A stretch of 64,000 nucleotides of DNA, taken from the NCBI GenBank assembly GCA_963678705.1, contig OY783215.1:14489740-14553739 (forward strand). Direction: 5' to 3'. The notes under the pieces were generated by a model. It did no database searches. It saw only the letters and a list, made by a program, of their open reading frames with translations, and was not told where the DNA came from. The stretch comes from Panorpa germanica. Its lineage: Eukaryota > Arthropoda > Insecta > Mecoptera > Panorpidae. Position numbers and translations under genes: made by a program. Shown piece after piece: positions 39,234 to 57,300 of this stretch (the first letter of the stretch is position 1; every line of letters begins with the position of its first letter).

Positions 39234-41491
39234 ATGTCAGACTATAGAAAATCAAGCGGTTCTTCTGATCATACTTTACCTCGATCAGATGATCCTCCAT
39301 ACTCAAGGTTATTTATTGTTTGTAGTAAAGACTTAGTTGAAGATGATTTTCGTTCAGCTTTCGAGAAATTTGGAACAATCGAAGAAATTCGAGTTGTACA
39401 AGACAGACACACCGGAGATAGTAAAGGTGCGCCATTTTAATTTATTTCTTTTTATTTTTGACATTTCTGAATAATGTTTGTTTACTTATCACCTTTTATT
39501 TTATATTTAAGGAGTTGTTTACATCAAATTCTCAAAAACATCGGAGGCAGCGAAAGCACTCGAAGAAATGAATGGATTCACTCTTGGAAATTCTTCACAG
39601 AGAGCTATAAAAGTAATAGTAGCTGCAAGGTATATAACTCATTGAGTAATATTTGTATCAGTACGGGTTAATAGTAGTGAAAGTGTTAACATTTATAGTG
39701 TTAAAAGTGCAAATATTTTATTGTAGCCGTGATCAAGGAAGTACAAAACGAGATGGTAACGAAGCTGAAAAATATACACGTCTTTTTGTTATTATTCCAA
39801 AATCAATGAGTGAATCGGACTTAACAGAAGAGTTTCGAAAGTTTGGTAGTATTGACTATGTCACAATTATCAAAGACAAAACAACACGGGAATCTAAAGG
39901 ATTTGCTTATATTAAATTCTTCAGTTTTTACCACGCAGCGTTAGCTTTTGAAAAATGCGAAAGACGATACAGAGCAGTTTTTGCAGAACCAAAACCTGTG
40001 AAATATGATCACAATAAAGCTTTATATGACTTTGACAGATACAAGTATGTATACATTTAGTACAACTCTTCACACAAGTATATGAATAGTTTATTTAATA
40101 TCGCTTTTATCAGTCCCAGTTCTTCGTCCAGTTATGCAGCATACGATAGTCTGCCTTTAGCAGTTCGTGACATTGTGTCTACTGGAGACAGTTTTAATGG
40201 AAACGCAAAATTAATTGTAACAGCCAGTCTTCACACCAACCAAGATCAAATGTGGAAACTTTTCGATATTATCCCAGGTTAGAATGTTTTAAATTACTTT
40301 TTATAAATTCTGAAATATTGTTATATAAATGGTTACAATTGTAGGGTTGGATTACTGTCACTTAAGTGGCAACCGGGGTAGTGTTACAAATCAATTTACG
40401 GTGGCTTATTCATCTCAGAAATCTGCAAATTATGCCAAAGAAAAATTACATGGTTTTGAATATCCCCCAGGTTATAGACTAATAGTAAAGTCAGATCCTG
40501 AAAGGTGAATATTATTGTTTTTTTATTATTTTGTTGTATAATGTTGGAAATGAGTATCATGTAGAAACTATATTCTTTTTTTTTATTTAAGTGTAACATA
40601 CTTTAGGCAAAATTTTTATAAACCAAATACTCATCATTTTCGATCCAATTTGAAACAGATATGTGCAACATAATATCAAAGTTTTAAAATATATTAACTA
40701 TAAAAAGTAATAATATAAAATTCTTTTATAAAGTTTTACATCAAATAATGATACAATTTCCCGAGGACTTCAGTCAGCAACAAGTATTCTTTCAAATCCA
40801 TCCGGAATTAATGACATAGCACAACTAGCTGAAACAATAGCGCAGGCTACAAGTTTAATACAAGCAGCTGGGCTGCAAGGTATGTTGAGATTCTCTAAAA
40901 CAAAAATACTGAGCTATGTTTGCTTAAGACTACCAAGCGAAGAATGATGATTTAATTATCTAATTTTCTTGCAGTACCTCCCGTTAATCCAGCAGATAAA
41001 TTAAAACTACCACCCCCACAACCGCTGGTTCATCTTGACTCCGCTGTTGCGTTACGGTATATTGTTTTCTTTCTTTTGTTAAATCTATCTGATGCGCAGT
41101 ACTTGAATATCCACAATTTATTTCCGTTTTCTTAATGTTACAGATTATTTGTTGTTTGTGTTCCCACGCCTCCACCCATACAAACATTAAGGGATGTTTT
41201 CTGTCGATTCGGAAACTTGATTGATGTCTATATGATATTTAATAAAAATTGTGGCTTTGCAAAATATTCCAGCAGAGAGAGTGCCTTAACAGCTATGGAG
41301 GTTTATATTTAACTACAGAAATAATTTAGTATAAATTTTATTGCTTTCATTTATTAATGTATATTTTATGAAAGGTATTGCATGGAGCTTATGTAAGTGG
41401 AGTGAGATTGAAGGTGCTAGAAGCTGATGAACCACGAGCACATTCAGAGGATGACAGACGTAAGAGAGTAAAGCGGGATGATGTGGACTAA
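39234..41491 (+). CDS. RBM45: RNA-binding protein 45 homologue, complete, nine exons
   Basis: Exons: 39234-39426, 39512-39629, 39727-40044, 40114-40277, 40345-40504, 40734-40879, 40975-41056, 41144-41300 and 41375-41491 (TAA). All junctions are GT/AG and phase-consistent; the product is 484 aa, close to vertebrate RBM45. RRM1 has RNP2 L-F-I-V-C-S (residues 26-31) and RNP1 K-G-V-V-Y-I-K-F. RRM2 has L-F-V-I-I-P (about 123) and K-G-F-A-Y-I-K-F. RRM3 is in exons 4-5, with L-H-G-F-E-Y-P-P-G at its end. RRM4 is in exons 8-9, with L-F-V-V-C-V and V-F-C-R-F-G-N-L-I. The C-terminus R-R-K-R-V-K-R is a likely nuclear localisation signal. The order of four RRMs, the P-P-Y-S-R-L-F start of RRM1 and the K-S-x-x-E-x-D-L start of RRM2 identify RBM45, a neural nuclear RNA-binding protein in vertebrates. 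The start is the first in-frame ATG; a GTG 57 bases upstream is not needed. Confidence 0.93.
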
Positions 41492-42242: not shown

Positions 42243-44033
42243 GTAGGAAAAGTATTGTTATTTTTTTATGTTTATCTAACGAAAAAAAAAGTATAGAAAA
42301 TTAACAATACTGAAAATGCAACTTTTATTTGTCTATTTAATGATATTGTAATTGCTTCAACGTAGCAAATATCTTGGACGATGTAATGGAATTAACTAAT
42401 TGGGGCTATGACTAGACTAAAATTGATTCATAGATTATGAATGGGTTTAGGGATCAGCTGCACAGTAATGGTTGTGCTAACTTAGGTCATAGTAATATGT
42501 GTCATTCCCTTAACCGAGCTCGCTAAGAAATTAAACAAGTTGTTTAGTATCGTCATTTAAATAAAATTGATATAAAATTTAATGTAGTTCTATATTCGAT
42601 AAATATTTGTCATTTAATATAAACTAAATTTGATTTTTATCTGTGATTTGTTTTTATCTTGTATGTTTCCATTTTCATATATTAAATTTGTAAATGTCCT
42701 ATGCTTACGTTATTATTATATTCAATTATAATTGACAATATGCATTTATGATAATTTTTGTATATAATGAACATTAATATTCTTGGTTAATTGGCAATTA
42801 CGTTGACTTTTAAAGAAGAGAATGCTTTGTAATATTGAACTGTATTTTCGGGGTGTACAAACCTTTTATGCTGTGTGTATTTTCTTCCTTTTTGTAATTT
42901 TTTGGGACATAGTTCATTTCATTAGAATTTTAAGGAGCTTGATTTCATATTCATCTAGGAATCATTAAAATTTAGAATATAAATCATTATTTCATAATTG
43001 TCTCGAATTTATCACCACAATTTATTTGTAAATAAATATTACATGAATAATAAATATCAATATGACTGACGACTTGTTTTTTTTTCTGCTTAATTGTTGT
43101 ATTTATTTTACAGAATAACTTCAAGGAGAGCTATCTGTGATAAATATTCTAAGTACAAATGTTAAATAAAACACTGATTGACTAAATGATTTGGTGTTAA
43201 TTAACAGCAAGATAAATTTTATAACGACTGGTATAAATAATGTAATCTTTCAGATTGTTTTATTTTACTATCCTGTGATATTAATTATATTTCTTAAGTA
43301 TTCAGTAATATATTTGTTCGAGTATTGTCTTTTTAATACAAATAATAATAAATCAATTAAATAATCTTTGTTTCTAAATTTCTTTAATCCTGTTCCACTC
43401 ATTCCATTTTCTGTTTCTTTTTTCATATCAATTAAAGAAGCATCTAGGCATTTATTATATATTACTAATTAATTACTCTAATAATTTTGCTGAATAATAA
43501 CATTTATGCATAAGATGATATTTTATCATCGCTAAAATTAACATACAGAATAAGACTTTAAAATAGACCTATTATATTTAAAAATGAAATCAGGTATTTA
43601 ATAATTAAGGAAACTGCTATTGATAACTAAAACATAAGTCAAAAAATAAGACACTAAGAGCGGTACTAGTTTAGTGCATGAAGAAATTCAATAAAAAGAT
43701 TGATTTTTAATTGTTGTAACAATAGAAGTTTGTATTTTGCTTCAACTCATTAAGAACAATAAAATCTATATTCATTAGTATTTACATACATAATTATTTT
43801 AAAATAAAACCAAAAATACGCCATCTATTTAATAGTAGATAATACGCCATCTATTTAATGGTAGATAGAACACATATAGTTAAAGATTAGTCTTGCAGAT
43901 GGCACCAGTTGTTTATAAATTGTGACGCCTGATGCGCTTACTACTATATTAACGCACAGTATATTATAACGTATTGTAATGTAGTTTTTCATACTGATTG
44001 AACAATTAAAACCGAATAACTTGACTTTTAGAA
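42243..44033. other. Intergenic, AT-rich, with a short tandem duplication
   Basis: No exon supported. 'ATACGCCATCTATTTAAT' followed by a GTAGATA motif occurs twice in tandem (43816-43866). The stretch 43893-43955 is similar to 52898-52965 inside the right palindrome arm (shared 'ACGCCTGAT.CGCTT.CTACTATAT'), so a diverged copy of part of that region lies just outside the repeat complex. Confidence 0.45.
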
Positions 44034-44776
44034 AGAAAGACCATGGATTTTGAAAGGATTGCAAGAGCAAGATTCCAAAGTAATACAGTTTACACTGTGG
44101 TGTAAGGTTTTATATCAAATAATACGAATGTCAAAGATATAAGATATATAAAATAATTTTAAATATATAATTTTTTCTATATCTAAGAATTTAAAAAAGT
44201 TTTAAAAGATTTCACGTTTTAAAGCGCCTGATCCTTGTGCTAATACTATAACGCTTTTTAACGTTTCTCTGGCTTACGACTTTATGGACATTTTTTCTAA
44301 AAAAAAAATTACATTTCTTAGATATTTTTTGATGCAGTTATGTTCGTTATGCTATAAAATAAAGAACTGCGTCATTACATTTTAAATATCAACGATTATC
44401 TGGAATTTATGCAACTTTTTGTAAATTCATGGATCTTTTTTTCTAAAAAAAAATTTACATTTCTTAGATATTTTTTGATGCAGTTATTTTCGTTATGCCT
44501 TATTAAAAAGAACTGCGTCATTATATTTTAAATATCTACGATTTTGTGGCATGTATGCGACCTTTTATAAATTCATAGACCTTTTTCTTAGAAAATTTAT
44601 ATTGTTATATTTTTTAAAAATGAGTAATATTTTCTAACTTAGATTTTTCTGCTGATTTCATAAATAATATTAATTTTTTTAAATCTATTACATTTCGAGT
44701 TTTATGTGCCGATATCTCGTAAACCAAAACACTTACCTAAAAATGAATTGCAGATTTAGAATCAGCATTCAAAATC

Positions 44777-45005
44777 ATGTTAAAAACCGTTTAAAAATTA
44801 CCATTTTATTTTTTTCAATTTTTATGAAAAGTAAGAAAAGTATAGTCTTCTTACTTTTTCAAAAAAAACTTTTTTTTATTTTGACATATGATATATGTTT
44901 TCTAGCGTAGTTTTTTATGCTCTTACCATTTTATGCTCTTACTCTTCTTACTTTTCATAAAAATTGAAAAAAATAAAATGGTAATTTTTAACCGGTTTTG
45001 ATGCA
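44777..45005. repeat. Foldback inside the diverged copy
   Basis: The stretch 44777-44840 ('AAACCGTTTAAAAATTACC' to 'ATGAAAAGTAAGAA') is reverse-complemented at 44946-45002 ('TTCTTACTTTTCATAAAAA' to 'GGTAATTTTTAACCGG'). This forms arms of about 55-60 bp around a loop of about 100 bp. Confidence 0.75.
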
Positions 45006-45650
45006 GTTATGTTCGTTAGGCTTTAAAATAAAGAACTGCTTCATTACATTTTAAAAAACTAAGCGTGTCTGGATTTTATGCGACCTTTTTTAAATTCATG
45101 GACTTTTTTTTCTAATTTTTTTTTCTGGATTTATTGAAATGTTTTGATGCAGTTATGTTCGTTAGGCTTTAAAATAAAGAACTGCTTCATTACATTTTAA
45201 AAAACTAGGCATGTCTGGCTTTTGTGCGACCTTTTTAAAATTCATGGACTTTTTTTTCTAATTTTTTTTTATGGAATTATTGAAATGTTTTGATGCAGTT
45301 ATGTTCGTTAGGCTTTAAAATAAAGAACTGCTTCATTACATTTTAAAGAACTAAGCGTGTCTCACTTTTGTGCGACCTTTTTAAAATTCATGGACTTTTT
45401 TTTCTAATTTTTTTTTTCTGGATTTGTTGAAATGTTTTGATGCAGTTATGTTCGTTAGGTTTTAAAATAAAGAACTGCTTCATTACATTTTAAAAAACTA
45501 GGCGTGTCTGGCTTTTGTGCGACCTTTTTAAAATTCATGGACTTTTTTCTAATTTTTTCTTATGGAATTATTGAAATGTTTTGATGCAGTTATGTTCGTT
45601 AGGCTTTAAAATAAAGAACTGCTTCATTACATTTTAAATATTTACGATTT
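45000..45650 (+). repeat. 146-bp tandem repeat, five units
   Basis: Units start at GATGCAGTTATGTTCGTTAG at 45000, 45146, 45292, 45439 and 45583, a spacing of 144-147 bp. Each unit contains GATGCAGTT followed about 30 bases later by AACTGCTTC, a short inverted repeat able to form a hairpin. The end is T-rich with 'TTCATGGACTTTTTT'. Two more diverged units (GATGCAGTTAT near 44331 and 44481) precede the array. Confidence 0.9.
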
Positions 45651-46480
45651 TCTGGCTTTTGAGTAAACATTAATAAAGTCAAAAATCAAATTTTAAAACG
45701 GCGATTATTCGAAAACTGTAAGAGATAATTGAAAATTTATTTTAATTTTGAAATCAGCATTAAAAACTACGTTCGAAAATATATATCATATGCCAAATTG
45801 AAAAAAATGTTTTTTTGAAAAAGTAAGAAGAGTAAATAAAATTGAAAATTTATTTTAATTTTGAAATCAGCATTAAAAACTACGTTCGAAAATATATATC
45901 ATATGCCAAATTGAAAAAAATGTTTTTTTGAAAAAGTAAGAAGACTATAATAGTCTTCTGCATTTACTTCACTTTTAAATTAATATCTGTCTGCAGCAAT
46001 CTTAGATAAAGCAAAATGTATTTCTATAAATAATTATAAACAATAATAAAGTTAAAAATAGATTCACGAACAAAAGAAAACAATTATAATAAAAGAAATA
46101 TTGAAAAAATGTATTGCGAATTCTTGATGGCAGGGTGTTTAGTCCTCAAAAACAAAGACTAGTTATAAATCCACTTGTTATACCGGCATTTTCGAATATC
46201 TATAGTTATTTGAAAGATAACAGATTAGATAACGAAATAAACTTGACTTACATTCAAAAATGTTTAAAATAAATAGTATATTATGTTTAAATATTGTCGA
46301 TTTCATGTTATATGTTCAGTAATACAAATTGCTCGTAAAATATGTAAAGGTAGAAGCAAAAACAAACAAAACCACGCTGGATGCGTATTAACAACACGCC
46401 AGATATACAGCGCATGTGCTTACAGCGATAATCCATCGTAAAACAGTAAATACAATTAGAAAAATATAAAATAAACTCAC

Positions 46481-46594
46481 CATGCCTGTTTTTCTTTCTA
46501 ATTTTCCTGGAGATAAATCTTCAGTTGAAAAATAAAGTTCCCTGGAAGATGTTCGATGTCTCGAAGTTACTGCCGACCTAATCACAGCTCCCAT
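46481..46594 (-). pseudogene. Mirror copy of a candidate first coding exon
   Basis: Exact reverse-complement copy of 53727-53840, including the start codon, the 38 codons and the GTGAGT donor. Transcribed leftward it would run into the repeat block and towards the 3' side of the RBM45 gene, where I see no continuing exon. It is therefore called an orphan duplicate; if the left arm is an assembly artefact it does not exist. Confidence 0.5.
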
Positions 46595-48671
46595 GTGACA
46601 CACTGCACTACGGCTAAAATGATACTAGCTAAAAAACACCGAACGTGTATTCGGGTGGAACAGAACTGAACCTAGAACGAAGAACGAAGTCGAGTAATCG
46701 AGTAATCGCCGCGACGCGACGGCAAAATAATACAGACGCAGTGAGTCACTGAGTCACCACCGCACGGTGAATGCCTGCCTCAGCCTGCCTGCAAATGTAG
46801 CGAAACGACGGCACACAGAGTGAAAGAATCAGATAATTCAATTAGTAACATGCTAAAAAGAGATGCAGCACTGTGTCATCGATCGATTTGTATTTGTTTT
46901 GCAATATACTGTACAACTTACAACACGTTTAACAATGTAATCTTTTCTTATTGCTTTTAAAAAAATTCAACTGATAAGTTATGTACCATCTATAGTTATT
47001 CACAGTTGGAAAGTATATCGCGTTTATATACATTATACAAATCTGGGGAATTTGGAGGCTTTAAGATATTTTAAATTGTTTGAATTTAGTACATTATAGA
47101 GAGTCTTACAAGAAAACTTAAGTGATTTTCTTGTTCATCTTATGGCTCCTATTCCGACTTACATTTAATAACGTCTGTTATTTGTAAACGACAGATGCCC
47201 ATGCATTTATTGTTACAGAATGTATAAAATACCTGTTCTATTATTGGTAAAGAGTTAAAGTAGTTCCCATGTTTATAGTTGAATAAGTAAGGTTTCATAT
47301 AAACAATCAAGAAATTGAAAATTCATACTACTGATAAATAGAATTTTGCGCATAAGTTTAAGTCTGTATATATAGTAGCAAGCGAATCAGGCGTAGTAAT
47401 TTTTAAACTACTAGTGTCATCTGTTAAACAATTTTTACTGTGTTTGTCTTCTCTACTGTTTAATAGATATCTATATTATTGGGTTAAGTATTTGCTAAAT
47501 AATTAATTTTACAAAACTAATAAGCGGAATAAATAATTACTAATGTATATTTTATTGTTGTTTAGTGCGTTGAGCAGAAGGAATAAGCTATGACTAATGA
47601 ATAGTTTACTTAATAACTGATTTAAATAAATTTATTTTTTCATAAGCAGTGCTGGATTAGCCGTATAGCAGAAGAAGCAAATGATACGGGTGCCAGCTTC
47701 TAAAATTTTAGTTTAAATATTTTTACATACAGCTACTATTTCATTAAACAATTCATAAATTATTGCATTATTACTGCTTAATAGCCGGCGCATTCGGTTT
47801 AAATAAATATAAATTAAGCCTGAACAGCAGGCAACCTAAATTACGTTATTTAAAATAAAGTTGCAGTTTAAGCAAGATATAGATATTTTTTACATTTTTT
47901 AATGTGGTTATATCCGCTATACGTTTAATTGACCAACTGTTTAATTAAAATTAAAATATTTACACATTTCCAGCTTTTATGGAACTTTTTAATAATTCAT
48001 TCAAAGACCATGAATTTTAAAAGGATTGCAAGAGCAAGATTCCAAAATAATACAGTTTACACTGTGGTGTAAGGTTTTATTTCAAATAATACGAATGTCA
48101 AAGATATAAGATACATAAAATAATTTTAAATATATAATTTTTTCTATATCTAAGAATTTAAAAAAGTTTTAAAAGATTTCACGTTTTAAAGCGCCTGATC
48201 CTTATACTAATACTATAACGCTTTTTAACGTTTCTCTGGCTTACGACTTTATGGACATTTTTTCTAAAAAAAAATTACATTTCTTTGATATTTTTTGATG
48301 CAGTTATGTTTGTTATGCTATAAAATAAAGAACTGCGTCATTACATTTTAAATATCTACGATTTTCTGGAATTTATGCAACTTTTTATAAATTCATGGAC
48401 CTTTTTCTTAGAAAATTTATATTGTTATATTTTTTAAAAATGAGTAATATTTTCTAACTTAGATTTTTCTGCTGATTTCATAAATAATATTAATTTTTTT
48501 AAATCTATTACATTTCGAGTTTTATGTGCCGATATCTCGTAAACCAAAACACTTACCTAAAAATGAATTGCAGATTTAGAATCAGCATTCAAAATCATGT
48601 TAAAAACCGTTTAAAAATTACCATTTTATTTTTTTTTAATTTTTATGAAAAGTAAGAAGAGTATAATAGTC

Positions 48672-48968
48672 TTCTTACTTTTTCAAAAAAAACTTTTTTT
48701 TATTTTGACATATGATATATGTTTTCTAGCGTAGTTTTTTATGCTGATTTCATTTTTGCAGTTAATTTTAAGATAGGTATTTTGGTTAACGATATATGAG
48801 CATATTAAAGTCAACGCAAAATAATACTTTAAATGCTGATTTATTCGAAAACTGTAAGAGATATTTAAAAATGGGTTTTAATTTTGAAGGCAGCATGAAA
48901 AACTACGCTAGAAAACATATATCATATGTCAAAATAAAAAAAAGTTTTTTTTGGAAAAGTAAGAAGAC
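48672..48968. repeat. Nested hairpin in the left arm
   Basis: Arms of about 70 bp: 48672-48745 (from 'CTTCTTACTTTTTC' through 'TTTTGACATATGATATATG' to 'TTTATGCTG') is reverse-complemented at 48892-48968. An outer pair (48600-48660 and 48972-49033) extends the foldback. The 68-residue open frame at 48796-49002 is contained in this repeat and is not considered a gene. Confidence 0.8.
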
Positions 48969-49034
48969 TATATATACTCTTCTTACTTTTCATAAAAATT
49001 GAAAAAAATAAAATGGTAATTTTTAAACGGTTTT

Positions 49035-49960
49035 GATGCAGTTATGTTCGTTAGGCTTTAAAATAAAGAACTGCTTCATTACATTTTAAAAAACTAAGCG
49101 TGTCTGGATTTTATGCGACCTTTTTTAAATTCATGGACTTTTTTTTCTAATTTTTTTTTCTGGATTTATTGAAATGTTTTGATGCAGTTATGTTCGTTAG
49201 GCTTTAAAATAAAGAACTGCTTCATTACATTTTAAAAAACTAGGCGTGTCTGGCTTTTATGCGACCTTTTTAAAATTCATGGACTTTTTTTTCTAATTTT
49301 TTTTTATGGAATTATTGAAATGTTTTGATGCAGTTATGTTCGTTAGGCTTTAAAATAAAGAACTGCTTCATTACATTTTAAAAAACTAGGCGTGTCTGGC
49401 TTTTGTGCGACCTTTTTAAAATTCATGGACTTTTTTTTCTAATTTTTTTTTATGGAATTATTGAAATGTTTTGATGCAGTTATGTTCGTTAGGCTTTAAA
49501 ATAAAGAACTGCTTCATTACATTTTAAAAAACTAGGCATGTCTGGCTTTTGTGCGACCTTTTTAAAATTCATGGACTTTTTTTTCTAATTTTTTTTTATG
49601 GAATTATTGAAATGTTTTGATGCAGTTATGTTCGTTAGGCTTTAAAATAAAGAACTGCTTCATTACATTTTAAAGAACTAAGCGTGTCTCACTTTTGTGC
49701 GACCTTTTTAAAATTCATGGACTTTTTTTTCTAATTTTTTTTTCTGGATTTGTTGAAATGTTTTGATGCAGTTATGTTCGTTAGGTTTTAAAATAAAGAA
49801 CTGCTTCATTACATTTTAAAAAACTAGGCGTGTCTGGCTTTTGTGCGACCTTTTTAAAATTCATGGACTTTTTTCTAATTTTTTCTTATGGAATTATTGA
49901 AATGTTTTGATGCAGTTATGTTCGTTAGGCTTTAAAATAAAGAACTGCTTCATTACATTT
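49035..49960 (+). repeat. 146-bp tandem repeat, seven units, left arm
   Basis: Units start at 49035, 49181, 49327, 49473, 49619, 49765 and 49909, spacing 146 bp except the last (144). The sequence is the same as the array at 45000; the last three units correspond to the last three units there. Confidence 0.92.
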
Positions 49961-50360
49961 TAAATATTTACGATTTTCTGGCTTTTGAGTAAACATTAAT
50001 AAAGTCAAAAATCAAATTTTAAAACGGCGATTATTCGAAAACTGTAAGAGATAATTGAAAATTTATTTTAATTTTGAAATCAGCATTAAAAACTACGTTC
50101 GAAAATATATATCATATGCCAAATTGAAAAAAATGTTTTTTTGAAAAAGTAAGAAGACTATAGTCTTCTTACTTTTTCAAAAAAACATTTTTTTCAATTT
50201 GGCATATGATATATATTTTCGAACGTAGTTTTTAATGCTGATTTCAAAATTAAAATAAATTTTCAATTATCTCTTACAGTTTTCGAATAATCGCCGTTTT
50301 AAAATTTGATTTTTGACTTTATTAATGTTTACTCAAAAGCCAGAAAATCGTAAATATTTA

Positions 50361-51286
50361 AAATGTAATGAAGCAGTTCTTTATTTTAAAGCCTAACGAA
50401 CATAACTGCATCAAAACATTTCAATAATTCCATAAGAAAAAATTAGAAAAAAGTCCATGAATTTTAAAAAGGTCGCACAAAAGCCAGACACGCCTAGTTT
50501 TTTAAAATGTAATGAAGCAGTTCTTTATTTTAAAACCTAACGAACATAACTGCATCAAAACATTTCAACAAATCCAGAAAAAAAAATTAGAAAAAAAAGT
50601 CCATGAATTTTAAAAAGGTCGCACAAAAGTGAGACACGCTTAGTTCTTTAAAATGTAATGAAGCAGTTCTTTATTTTAAAGCCTAACGAACATAACTGCA
50701 TCAAAACATTTCAATAATTCCATAAAAAAAAATTAGAAAAAAAAGTCCATGAATTTTAAAAAGGTCGCACAAAAGCCAGACATGCCTAGTTTTTTAAAAT
50801 GTAATGAAGCAGTTCTTTATTTTAAAGCCTAACGAACATAACTGCATCAAAACATTTCAATAATTCCATAAAAAAAAATTAGAAAAAAAAGTCCATGAAT
50901 TTTAAAAAGGTCGCACAAAAGCCAGACACGCCTAGTTTTTTAAAATGTAATGAAGCAGTTCTTTATTTTAAAGCCTAACGAACATAACTGCATCAAAACA
51001 TTTCAATAATTCCATAAAAAAAAATTAGAAAAAAAAGTCCATGAATTTTAAAAAGGTCGCATAAAAGCCAGACACGCCTAGTTTTTTAAAATGTAATGAA
51101 GCAGTTCTTTATTTTAAAGCCTAACGAACATAACTGCATCAAAACATTTCAATAAATCCAGAAAAAAAAATTAGAAAAAAAAGTCCATGAATTTAAAAAA
51201 GGTCGCATAAAATCCAGACACGCTTAGTTTTTTAAAATGTAATGAAGCAGTTCTTTATTTTAAAGCCTAACGAACATAACTGCATC
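50361..51286 (-). repeat. 146-bp tandem repeat, seven units, right arm
   Basis: Mirror of 49035-49960, reading in reverse ('CTAACGAACATAACTGCATC' at each unit). Same unit order and variants. Confidence 0.92.
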
Positions 51287-51352
51287 AAAACCGTTTAAAA
51301 ATTACCATTTTATTTTTTTCAATTTTTATGAAAAGTAAGAAGAGTATATATA

Positions 51353-51649
51353 GTCTTCTTACTTTTCCAAAAAAAACTTTTTTTTATTTTGACATATGAT
51401 ATATGTTTTCTAGCGTAGTTTTTCATGCTGCCTTCAAAATTAAAACCCATTTTTAAATATCTCTTACAGTTTTCGAATAAATCAGCATTTAAAGTATTAT
51501 TTTGCGTTGACTTTAATATGCTCATATATCGTTAACCAAAATACCTATCTTAAAATTAACTGCAAAAATGAAATCAGCATAAAAAACTACGCTAGAAAAC
51601 ATATATCATATGTCAAAATAAAAAAAAGTTTTTTTTGAAAAAGTAAGAA
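51353..51649. repeat. Nested hairpin in the right arm
   Basis: Mirror of 48672-48968. The open frame at 51319-51525 is the same repeat-derived frame as in the left arm. Confidence 0.8.
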
Positions 51650-53519
51650 GACTATTATACTCTTCTTACTTTTCATAAAAATTAAAAAAAAATAAAATGG
51701 TAATTTTTAAACGGTTTTTAACATGATTTTGAATGCTGATTCTAAATCTGCAATTCATTTTTAGGTAAGTGTTTTGGTTTACGAGATATCGGCACATAAA
51801 ACTCGAAATGTAATAGATTTAAAAAAATTAATATTATTTATGAAATCAGCAGAAAAATCTAAGTTAGAAAATATTACTCATTTTTAAAAAATATAACAAT
51901 ATAAATTTTCTAAGAAAAAGGTCCATGAATTTATAAAAAGTTGCATAAATTCCAGAAAATCGTAGATATTTAAAATGTAATGACGCAGTTCTTTATTTTA
52001 TAGCATAACAAACATAACTGCATCAAAAAATATCAAAGAAATGTAATTTTTTTTTAGAAAAAATGTCCATAAAGTCGTAAGCCAGAGAAACGTTAAAAAG
52101 CGTTATAGTATTAGTATAAGGATCAGGCGCTTTAAAACGTGAAATCTTTTAAAACTTTTTTAAATTCTTAGATATAGAAAAAATTATATATTTAAAATTA
52201 TTTTATGTATCTTATATCTTTGACATTCGTATTATTTGAAATAAAACCTTACACCACAGTGTAAACTGTATTATTTTGGAATCTTGCTCTTGCAATCCTT
52301 TTAAAATTCATGGTCTTTGAATGAATTATTAAAAAGTTCCATAAAAGCTGGAAATGTGTAAATATTTTAATTTTAATTAAACAGTTGGTCAATTAAACGT
52401 ATAGCGGATATAACCACATTAAAAAATGTAAAAAATATCTATATCTTGCTTAAACTGCAACTTTATTTTAAATAACGTAATTTAGGTTGCCTGCTGTTCA
52501 GGCTTAATTTATATTTATTTAAACCGAATGCGCCGGCTATTAAGCAGTAATAATGCAATAATTTATGAATTGTTTAATGAAATAGTAGCTGTATGTAAAA
52601 ATATTTAAACTAAAATTTTAGAAGCTGGCACCCGTATCATTTGCTTCTTCTGCTATACGGCTAATCCAGCACTGCTTATGAAAAAATAAATTTATTTAAA
52701 TCAGTTATTAAGTAAACTATTCATTAGTCATAGCTTATTCCTTCTGCTCAACGCACTAAACAACAATAAAATATACATTAGTAATTATTTATTCCGCTTA
52801 TTAGTTTTGTAAAATTAATTATTTAGCAAATACTTAACCCAATAATATAGATATCTATTAAACAGTAGAGAAGACAAACACAGTAAAAATTGTTTAACAG
52901 ATGACACTAGTAGTTTAAAAATTACTACGCCTGATTCGCTTGCTACTATATATACAGACTTAAACTTATGCGCAAAATTCTATTTATCAGTAGTATGAAT
53001 TTTCAATTTCTTGATTGTTTATATGAAACCTTACTTATTCAACTATAAACATGGGAACTACTTTAACTCTTTACCAATAATAGAACAGGTATTTTATACA
53101 TTCTGTAACAATAAATGCATGGGCATCTGTCGTTTACAAATAACAGACGTTATTAAATGTAAGTCGGAATAGGAGCCATAAGATGAACAAGAAAATCACT
53201 TAAGTTTTCTTGTAAGACTCTCTATAATGTACTAAATTCAAACAATTTAAAATATCTTAAAGCCTCCAAATTCCCCAGATTTGTATAATGTATATAAACG
53301 CGATATACTTTCCAACTGTGAATAACTATAGATGGTACATAACTTATCAGTTGAATTTTTTTAAAAGCAATAAGAAAAGATTACATTGTTAAACGTGTTG
53401 TAAGTTGTACAGTATATTGCAAAACAAATACAAATCGATCGATGACACAGTGCTGCATCTCTTTTTAGCATGTTACTAATTGAATTATCTGATTCTTTCA
53501 CTCTGTGTGCCGTCGTTTC

Positions 53520-53726
53520 GCTACATTTGCAGGCAGGCTGAGGCAGGCATTCACCGTGCGGTGGTGACTCAGTGACTCACTGCGTCTGTATTATTTTGCC
53601 GTCGCGTCGCGGCGATTACTCGATTACTCGACTTCGTTCTTCGTTCTAGGTTCAGTTCTGTTCCACCCGAATACACGTTCGGTGTTTTTTAGCTAGTATC
53701 ATTTTAGCCGTAGTGCAGTGTGTCAC
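53520..53726 (+). promoter_or_regulatory. GC-rich promoter-like segment and 5' UTR
   Basis: A patch with CpG-containing strings (GCCGTCGCGTCGCGGCG) in otherwise AT-rich DNA. It is followed by TCAGTT at 53652-53657, which matches the insect initiator, 70 bases ahead of the start codon at 53727. No TATA box is seen at -30. The same segment exists in mirror form at 46595-46801. The promoter call is inferred from composition and position only. Confidence 0.4.
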
Positions 53727-53840
53727 ATGGGAGCTGTGATTAGGTCGGCAGTAACTTCGAGACATCGAACATCTTCCAGGGAACTTTATTTTTCAACTGA
53801 AGATTTATCTCCAGGAAAATTAGAAAGAAAAACAGGCATG
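53727..53840 (+). CDS. Candidate first coding exon, unknown protein
   Basis: 38 codons from ATG, with M-G-A-V-I-R-S-A-V and S-T-E-D-L-S-P-G-K-L-E-R, ending in phase 0 at ATG|GTGAGT. Coding-like composition, a good donor and the GC-rich upstream patch support an exon. The protein is not recognised and no signal peptide is apparent. The rest of the gene would lie to the right, probably beyond the window. The second candidate first exon at 58984 ends in the same phase. Confidence 0.5.
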
Positions 53841-54364
53841 GTGAGTTTATTTTATATTTTTCTAATTGTATTTACTGTTTTACGATGGATTATCGCTGTA
53901 AGCACATGCGCTGTATATCTGGCGTGTTGTTAATACGCATCCAGCGTGGTTTTGTTTGTTTTTGCTTCTACCTTTACATATTTTACGAGCAATTTGTATT
54001 ACTGAACATATAACATGAAATCGACAATATTTAAACATAATATACTATTTATTTTAAACATTTTTGAATGTAAGTCAAGTTTATTTCGTTATCTAATCTG
54101 TTATCTTTCAAATAACTATAGATATTCGAAAATGCCGGTATAACAAGTGGATTTATAACTAGTCTTTGTTTTTGAGGACTAAACACCCTGCCATCAAGAA
54201 TTCGCAATACATTTTTTCAATATTTCTTTTATTATAATTGTTTTCTTTTGTTCGTGAATCTATTTTTAACTTTATTATTGTTTATAATTATTTATAGAAA
54301 TACATTTTGCTTTATCTAAGATTGCTGCAGACAGATATTAATTTAAAAGTGAAGTAAATGCAGA

Positions 54365-57300
54365 TTGGCAATTTCGTTTCTTTTTGTATTGATAAAAATA
54401 AATGATTTCGAGAATATACTAAAAACAATTGATGTTTTTTTATCACTTATTTTAGTCACTAATTAATTTTTTATGACATCAGACCAACTATGATAGCAAC
54501 TGACTTTATTTGAAAGTTAAGTAGATGAATCAACTCCACTCTGACCCCGTGCTCCAAGGGTACATCTTCTGCAAACACAAATAGTATACACATTTATCTT
54601 CGTTCCTTTAGATTGTGATGTTGACATTGTCTGAGTTCGACTTATCAGTTCCACTGCCCCACTCTCCTATTATCTAAAATACATAAAGATTGAAATTTCG
54701 AATTTCTAGATTTCTTATATTCCACTTCCGTGTCTTTGAGTGAGTTGGGTGGATATTCTAGGCAAATATTGATTGATCTAGTACGACTAGCAATATGCAA
54801 ATCCAATCACTTCGAAGTGATAATGTGTTCTATCTTGTCAGCAAGTGAACGAAATTTGAATTTCATTTAAAGTTAAACTGCGCTTAACAGGGTTCTGTGC
54901 ATTTAAGGTTTATCTAACATAACAAAAGCTATGCGTCACCTGATTATATTGTAACTTTAACAATAAACCTAATCCAATTACCTGGATATTTAGATTAAAA
55001 TCGTTTATTAGTACGTGCTACGATAGCCACGTTTATCAGATAATGAATTGTTTGTGACATTGACACAAAATGAAATCAAGCCATAATCATTGCAGTGCTT
55101 TAAAATGAGTCAAGTGGTTAAACATTAGTTGTCTAGTTTTGTTTAATATATATAACATTATTAAATCTCGCAAAATATATATGAGGGTGTGTTTCTTAGA
55201 TAATTAATATAGGGTTTAATTCATAGATGTCATTGAGCTATTTGTTAGTTTCTGATTACTAAATGACAAATATAAAATATTACTGTTTCATTTAAAATCC
55301 AAATATCATTAAACTAAACTTTCCGTTGAACTTATACGCAGGTTATTAGGTACGTGTAGTAATCATTAGCGGACGCGGTTTTATGTTATTTTGCGTTATT
55401 AATAACTTATTTAGTTACTTTACTTATAACCATAAACTGGTCTTCTTATTGAAAGTTGAACAAATGTCATTACATTTACTGCAGCTGTGTTTTTCAAACA
55501 TAACTATTTTATGATTTTAAAACAAACAAAAAATCATTTACATAAATTATCCGACGGGTATTTTATTTGTGTTCATATCGGCGTCTGGTTTATTTTCAAT
55601 TTAATGTAATTTATTCTAATGATGCAAGTACACAGTGTCGCACTTAGGATCTGTAAACCGAGTGCGAGTGCCCTATCAGGAGAATGTTGAGAGGGGATAA
55701 TGATACACAGATGTAATATGCAGTTTTAGAAGAGTTGCTTTATCAAAAAATATTCTAAAAATGTCGGGTTTGCAAGTAATCAGCTCCAGTGTGAAAAAAA
55801 CTCTAACTTGTTCCTAATATTTCTAATATTTATTTAATATAATGCAGTCCTTAAGAAAGAACATAACCTAGAAAAGTTTTCAGGACAGAGTTCTATGATG
55901 TAAATATGGTTATGTAGATTCAAGACAGCTTTTAAATGTATAAAACAACATCACGTATTTTATTAGAATTATATTTTCTATATATTACTATTCCATTTAA
56001 GTTTTGTTGCATTTTAGTTATTGTGAAATTATTTAGAATGTTGTAAGTTCAGCTATCTCTGTCTATCGTAGCATCCGTTATCTGTTCATCAGTTGACGGG
56101 TCTTAGTGTCAATCTGTCAGTCTTATTGAGATATTCTCGCGCTGTGCGCTTGGATTTTTGGATTACGCGATTTGTTTGCTTTCGTTTGAGTGGATTTCGT
56201 ATTAGATGGTTCGTATATCCTTTAGTTTTTTAATCATTATTCGTTTTTTATGCTAATCATCAAAAGAATAAATATACTCTCATTTCTAAGTTGTTCTTGT
56301 GATAACTAAATATCCACTGAATACATTTATGTAGTTTTTAAGTATACGTATGTAGTTAAGAGGCTGTTATTTTGGAATCGCCTTATATTATTTGTATTGT
56401 ACTGTTTTTATTATTTAATTTACATTCTTCCAACATTCATTCATCTAATTATATCTCTTTATCAAATTAAACTTGAAACTAATCTCAATCTAATTATTAT
56501 ACATATTTAACCTAAAGACAGCTCTTAATTCTTTTCATCGTGTCATCTCTTTCTGTCCTCTACTTCTTCGTTTCTCTCTGCTTCTCCTTTCTTACTCCTT
56601 AATTCTTCTTTGTAATTATGACATCCACCCCTTCCTCTTTTGCCTCCGCTCAACAATTCCGCTATCTCCTTTTCACTCTTCATACGTTCCAACCTTCTCT
56701 CCTCTTTTCCCTTATCACACTCTGCACACTGTTCTCTCTTTCTCCTTATTGCCCATTACGAATTTCGTATTCTTGTTGTGTCTATATCATCCCCTTAAAA
56801 GAATTATAAACGTTCATCGTCTCTTGATAGAACATCATTTAATCAATAGCCGCAATGATTTTAGGAAAGCTTTTAATTAATCTTTGAATACTAATATTAT
56901 TTTTTATTTAAATACTTCACAGTACAATTTTGTTTTAACTAGCTTGCTACAAGATCATTTCAAGGATTTAGATTATATATTATACAGAAAATACTCAGTA
57001 GCGTGTTATCCTAACAGGAGAATCACGTAGAGGTCCTAACTAATCTTTTATAATCTCATTACTGTAGCGAAAATATCGATTTTGAAAATGAAACATTATC
57101 TAAAGTATTTTTGTTTGAATACATATTGAAATTTAACCTAAAATTATGAAAAAGAATATTGTGGAGATTGAATGAACAACATAATTTAAAAATAGGGATT
57201 TTGTGAAAAAAGGGCAAAGTTATAATAAACATAATAACTTATATTATGCTACTGTCAAAGCAAAGTCAGGTAAATTGATTGCGGGTTTAAAAAAACATAG

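Follow-up and report, generated by a model that had tools for sequence, protein, structure and literature searches.

At 45957-54364 of the window lies a perfect palindrome of 8408 bp, with no spacer between its arms, which probably reflects a genuine rearrangement of very recent date. The window is the whole 64,000-bp stretch of DNA that was analysed (C12:14489740-14553739); the contig, C12, is 16.6 Mb long and belongs to an assembly of 464 Mb in 249 contigs. The palindrome is centred on the core of a foldback-type repeat family that is dispersed in the genome and has inverted arms made of 146-bp tandem units. Each palindrome arm is heterogeneous. It begins with flanking DNA, here called B, and continues as a repeat-element arm, here called half2, up to position 50160. 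Mirror copies are marked with a prime.

45957-50160, + strand: left palindrome arm (B and half2), from the outward pairing walk
50161-54364, − strand: right palindrome arm (half2' and B'), the reverse complement of the left one without a mismatch

We walked outward from 50160|50161 and found no mismatches in 4204 pairs. The first unpaired position is 45956/54365, and further mismatches follow immediately beyond it, i.e., the palindrome ends abruptly. Since the arms are identical, all of the homopolymer runs of at least seven A or T (21 per arm) are mirrored. An earlier note on this DNA had described a perfect 8.4-kb palindrome at 45957..54364 with homopolymer-rich sequence identical between the arms, and had placed the centre at 50160/50161 without a spacer. 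Its coordinates are right, there is no unpaired base at the centre, and the search for mismatches over the full arm-to-arm comparison, which it had named as a check, came back empty. The longest other perfect spacerless palindromes in the window measure 20 bp (left of the 8408-bp palindrome) and 16 bp (right of it), and the longest anywhere in 20 related loci that were fetched for comparison is at most 54 bp. Thus, a chance origin of the 8408-bp palindrome is excluded.

The repeat family at the centre

A genome search with a 261-bp query from the centre gave 398 matches, and those listed represent at least 39 loci, the window among them (counted by eye). Our sample for the family comparison was 20 fetched loci of the 38 listed besides the window. 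In these 20, the 146-bp units are in + orientation to the left of the centre and in − orientation to the right; exceptions are isolated partial units in the reverse orientation in L022, L023, and L025. The longest inverted self-match of each fetched locus is 86-96% identical (n = 20), and the outer modules differ from locus to locus within the family. No obvious target-site duplication was seen by eye at the presumed ends of L026, the one locus inspected for it.

50153-50168, no strand: 16-bp palindromic core GAAGACTATAGTCTTC, with its dyad at 50160|50161

Thirteen of the 20 related loci carry an exact copy of the 28-bp stretch around this core. The perfect spacerless palindrome at the family dyad is 42-54 bp long in 14 loci and 2-6 bp long in the remaining six. 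The short pairing in those six is due to cores that are slightly asymmetric, and their longest palindrome lies away from the centre. The earlier note had regarded a spacerless centre as unusual. This does not hold for the family, in which the same dyad is perfect and spacerless in those 14 loci. A spacerless core is the usual state of these elements, and the missing spacer of the window palindrome was probably inherited from the element, because most of the relatives already carry a spacerless perfect core. The unusual feature of the locus is the growth of that core to 8408 bp.

The two sides of the dyad are of different types in most relatives. The innermost 100 bp are L-type on one side (96.9-99.0% identical to the query) and R-type on the partner side (84-90%) in 19 of the 20 fetched loci. 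The window palindrome has identical L-type sequence on the two sides of its dyad; half2 and half1, the element arm to the left of the palindrome, both have an L-type centre. When the 60-bp L|L' centre was searched for genome-wide with up to three mismatches, the only matches were the window (0 mismatches) and C8:20218741 (3 mismatches, all on one side). In L014 (4640-5275), L-type arms flank a middle segment of about 305 bp that is bounded by two cores.

Element arms, flanking DNA and junctions

The remaining structure of the locus consists of three element arms with their arrays, the flanking DNA, and the left junction:

44039-45952, + strand: half1, presumed native left arm of the same element as half2', in direct orientation to half2 and outside the palindrome on its left
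48006-50160, + strand: half2, foldback-element arm (outer limit approximate)
50161-52315, − strand: half2', mirror copy of half2, presumed native right arm of the original element
45957-47356 (end approximate), + strand: B, flanking DNA delimited by genome search, presumed derived inverted copy
52965-54364, − strand: B', mirror of B, presumed native copy, continuous with flank C
44995-45638, + strand: 146-bp tandem array of half1, 4.4 copies
49030-49964, + strand: 146-bp tandem array of the left palindrome arm, 6.4 copies
50357-51291, − strand: 146-bp tandem array of the right palindrome arm, 6.4 copies
45727-45952, + strand: inner end of half1, duplicated in tandem (113 bp; 4 differences from one copy to the other)
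45957-45959, no strand: microhomology of 3 bp (TCT) where the half1 core meets B
53727-53840, + strand: putative first coding exon of 38 aa, with an in-frame stop upstream and a GTGAGT donor, reading towards C
46481-46594, − strand: mirror image of this putative exon, directed towards half1

Half2 is made up of outer modules, an internal imperfect palindrome, the 146-bp array, and a central domain. Pieces that resemble dispersed repeats extend outward from it to about 47357. The internal imperfect palindrome (48603-49034, mirror 51287-51718; 83%) resembles the central domain of the element, and for this reason the half2 arm may itself be the product of an earlier nesting or foldback.

Half1 and half2 differ by 21 substitutions in 1627 compared bases (1.29%), plus unit-number and other indels; the comparison used four aligned segments that were picked to leave out large indels. 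By segment, the differences are 11/377 (outer), 3/358 (middle), 7/469 (array), and 0/423 (innermost), and the element arms look partly homogenised, judging by the innermost segment against the outer one. Of the 99 candidates for a match to the outer arm (44036-44290), 40 were scored, and those of at least 97% over the full length are confined to half1 and both half2 copies. The next in length has 79% identity over 176 bp, and a few short pieces are more similar (90% over 59 bp, 94% over 36 bp). Private substitutions that are absent from the arms of 12 other aligned loci are also common to half1 and half2. Because the outer arm sequence is locus-specific and the private substitutions are common to both, the best reading of half1 and half2 is as the two arms, left and right, of a single original element (half1|half2'), which would have been followed by B' and then C. 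We also considered a tandem duplication as the origin of half1 and half2 with their different flanks, and rejected it on the grounds that half1 ends at its core and that the outer arm is locus-specific.

The palindrome takes in about 1.4 kb of flanking DNA that is single-copy where tested and that includes the putative first exon. The full-length matches of a query from this region (46200-47850) are its two mirror copies only (40 of 192 candidates scored). The remaining 40 of the 42 listed matches are short pieces of at most 85% identity, none of them left of about 47357. Flank C (54365-55900) has one full match in the genome, itself, and short pieces elsewhere. The putative exon sits in a GC-richer patch of B (0.446 vs. 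0.277 for the arm), and its 38 aa have no Pfam or PDB match. If it is a true first exon, the event would have duplicated a promoter, with the copy pointing the other way. A conserved palindromic gene pair was rejected as an account of the arms, in which this exon is the only coding candidate seen. In flank A, to the left of half1, there is a 26-bp tandem duplication (43815-43867) near sequence that by eye resembles the right outer flank of L021.

Half1 stops at its core, where the other arm would be expected, and is joined to B via TCT. The core at this junction reads GAAGACTATAATAGTCTTC, which differs from the core of the palindrome. On the far side, the boundary between B' and C falls at the same position of B as the half1/B junction, and TCT is common to both. 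A 3-bp overlap can, by itself, be due to chance. The second copy of the 113-bp duplication, which adjoins this junction, is identical to half2 over its first 107 bp, and the duplication may be a product of the same event as the palindrome.

Origin of the palindrome

With moderate confidence, we attribute the palindrome to a real rearrangement, a foldback at the palindromic core of a native foldback-type element. The ancestral order would have been half1|half2', with B' beyond the right arm and then C. Synthesis of a strand from the C side would have run through B' and half2' to the core, reversed there via a hairpin or by a switch to the other strand, and continued back over half2' and B' for 4204 bp; the end would then have re-joined the half1 side of the core through the 3 bp TCT. 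The net product would be an inverted copy, B-half2, inserted between half1 and half2', and it would be present in the animal as well as in the assembly. Template switching during replication and a hairpin-capped break with rejoining would give the same product and are not told apart from each other here. In yeast deficient in Sae2 or Mre11, a break near natural inverted repeats is reported to lead to inverted duplications (PMC10622511), and divergent inverted repeats are described as folding back in single-stranded DNA (PMC10164571).

The earlier note had set a recent inverted duplication or foldback amplification against an artefact. This was the right pair of alternatives, and we favour the first; the position of the centre in a dispersed element and the microhomology junction at the left end had gone unreported. 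The absence of differences between the palindrome arms (0/4204) sets a 95% upper bound of 0.07% on their divergence, as compared with the 21/1627 of half1 and half2. From this comparison the event would be far younger than the element arms, unless conversion has erased differences. The L-type centre of half2 is a counterpoint to a simple foldback model, given the one L and one R arm of nearly all relatives. An ordinary element would have supplied one R arm, so the L|L' centre needs an extra step, either arm-to-arm conversion, as suggested by the identical innermost segments of half1 and half2, or an ancestor like L014.

A library or assembly artefact of some kind, haplotype mis-join included, has a serious claim, although one that falls short of even. 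Its likelier form would be a chimeric molecule (e.g., from whole-genome amplification) or a wrong path in the assembly graph, with only half1|half2'-B'-C in the genome; we hold this to be unlikely but far from negligible. It would fit arms that are 100% identical down to their homopolymer runs, and palindromic chimeras are reported to be abundant in amplified libraries, at 40-50% of reads in Arabidopsis samples (PMC6218980). Foldbacks are given as about 0.55-0.6% of ONT genomic reads in a source that finds them virtually absent from its PacBio HiFi sample, although the platform here may differ (PMC12870357). The L|L' centre, found nowhere else in the genome at fewer than three mismatches, fits an artefact and is equally expected of a new event. 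The left junction is harder to accommodate. It is non-homologous, and a symmetric foldback read would not contain the joint between half1 and B, nor would homology-driven misassembly be expected to join sequences at 3 bp. None of the 20 fetched loci (of the 38 listed besides the window) has a perfect palindrome longer than 54 bp, which argues that repeats of this family are not generally misassembled in this way.

A mis-join of two haplotypes, one of standard order and one in which half2'-B' is inverted (A-half1-B-half2-C), would account for the half1-B junction, and for the perfect identity as well if the haplotypes are nearly identical. However, it requires a polymorphic inversion with one end precisely at the core, together with a false joining of the haplotypes at the dyad. 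The window shows no half2-C junction, and the matches listed for the tested parts of B and C include no further copy in the assembly. We consider it highly improbable. The palindrome could also be old and functionally maintained, its identity kept by gene conversion between the arms. The arms of primate sex-chromosome palindromes are kept identical in this manner, and the partly homogenised look of the element arms would agree with such a process. However, the identity is total over 4204 bp and stops sharply at 45956/54365, while half1 and half2 differ by 1.29%, and great age is in our view the least probable of these explanations.

Related systems and implications

The event proposed here, foldback at the element core, is of a known kind, and the locus is a clean and apparently very recent example of it. 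Inverted copying that starts from a short inverted repeat, with the second junction at a repeat or microhomology, is a feature of MMBIR/FoSTeS. In the window the inverted copy would likewise have been seeded at a short inverted repeat, the core before the event being deduced from the family. The foldback inverted duplications of yeast mre11/sae2 mutants also start at a pre-existing short inverted repeat (PMC10622511), and in these events as in ODIRA the second junction is described at a repeat or microhomology (PMC10622511, PMC4689423). Unlike the yeast events, the one here is at a natural locus, spans 4.2 kb, and lacks a spacer, since its seed is a spacerless core. The secondary translocation breakpoints reported for yeast sae2 clones are at PAU genes or delta elements (PMC10622511), unlike the 3 bp of our junction. 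Small inverted triplications (SITs) are similar in their replication-linked inverted copying and short junctions; they average 148/160/148 bp with a 30-bp spacer, whereas each arm of the present palindrome has 4204 bp, the spacer is absent, and one copy is added (PMC13334657). Large palindromes can be unstable, as in yeast inverted dimeric plasmids that rearranged over about 100 generations, and the same source reports most chromosomal palindromic junctions in yeast as stable (PMC4689423).

In its architecture, the family resembles foldback (FB-type) elements, Galileo (PMC4168063), and Tm1 (PMC3169594). Like FB-type elements and Galileo (Drosophila, P superfamily), it has dispersed copies, long inverted arms of direct tandem units (the 146-bp units of the 20 fetched loci), variable arm length, and imperfect arm identity. 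One Galileo copy of D. willistoni is reported with TIRs of 4246 and 4680 bp that contain tandem repeats of about 140 bp, and some Galileo copies have recruited non-TIR segments into their TIRs (PMC4168063). Unlike in those elements, the arms of the present family meet at a loopless core in the 14 relatives with long dyad pairing.

More speculatively, and we regard this as rather doubtful, the family core may be a recurrent seed for palindrome growth, with foldback carrying host DNA from next to the element into its arms, in this case perhaps a promoter with a first exon. If so, the locus would be an early, still perfect stage, and would give a direct view of how the arms of foldback elements lengthen and recruit host sequence; it would also mean that an animal genome can harbour an 8-kb palindrome without a spacer. 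If the rearrangement itself is real, it offers a fresh natural case of foldback starting from an inverted-repeat core without a spacer, in which both junctions can be read, and connects the mechanism known from yeast work with the way in which transposon arms grow. If it is an artefact, it marks spacerless foldback cores as a class of repeat prone to false inverted duplication by libraries or assemblers, and the false duplication here includes a duplicated putative first exon.

ARAGORN found no tRNA genes in the window. There are nine ORFs of at least 100 aa, one with a Pfam match above the cut-off and one other with a sub-threshold match. The former lies outside the palindrome, and its match is to RRM_1, in 39653-40060 (Pfam E-value 5.8e-12).
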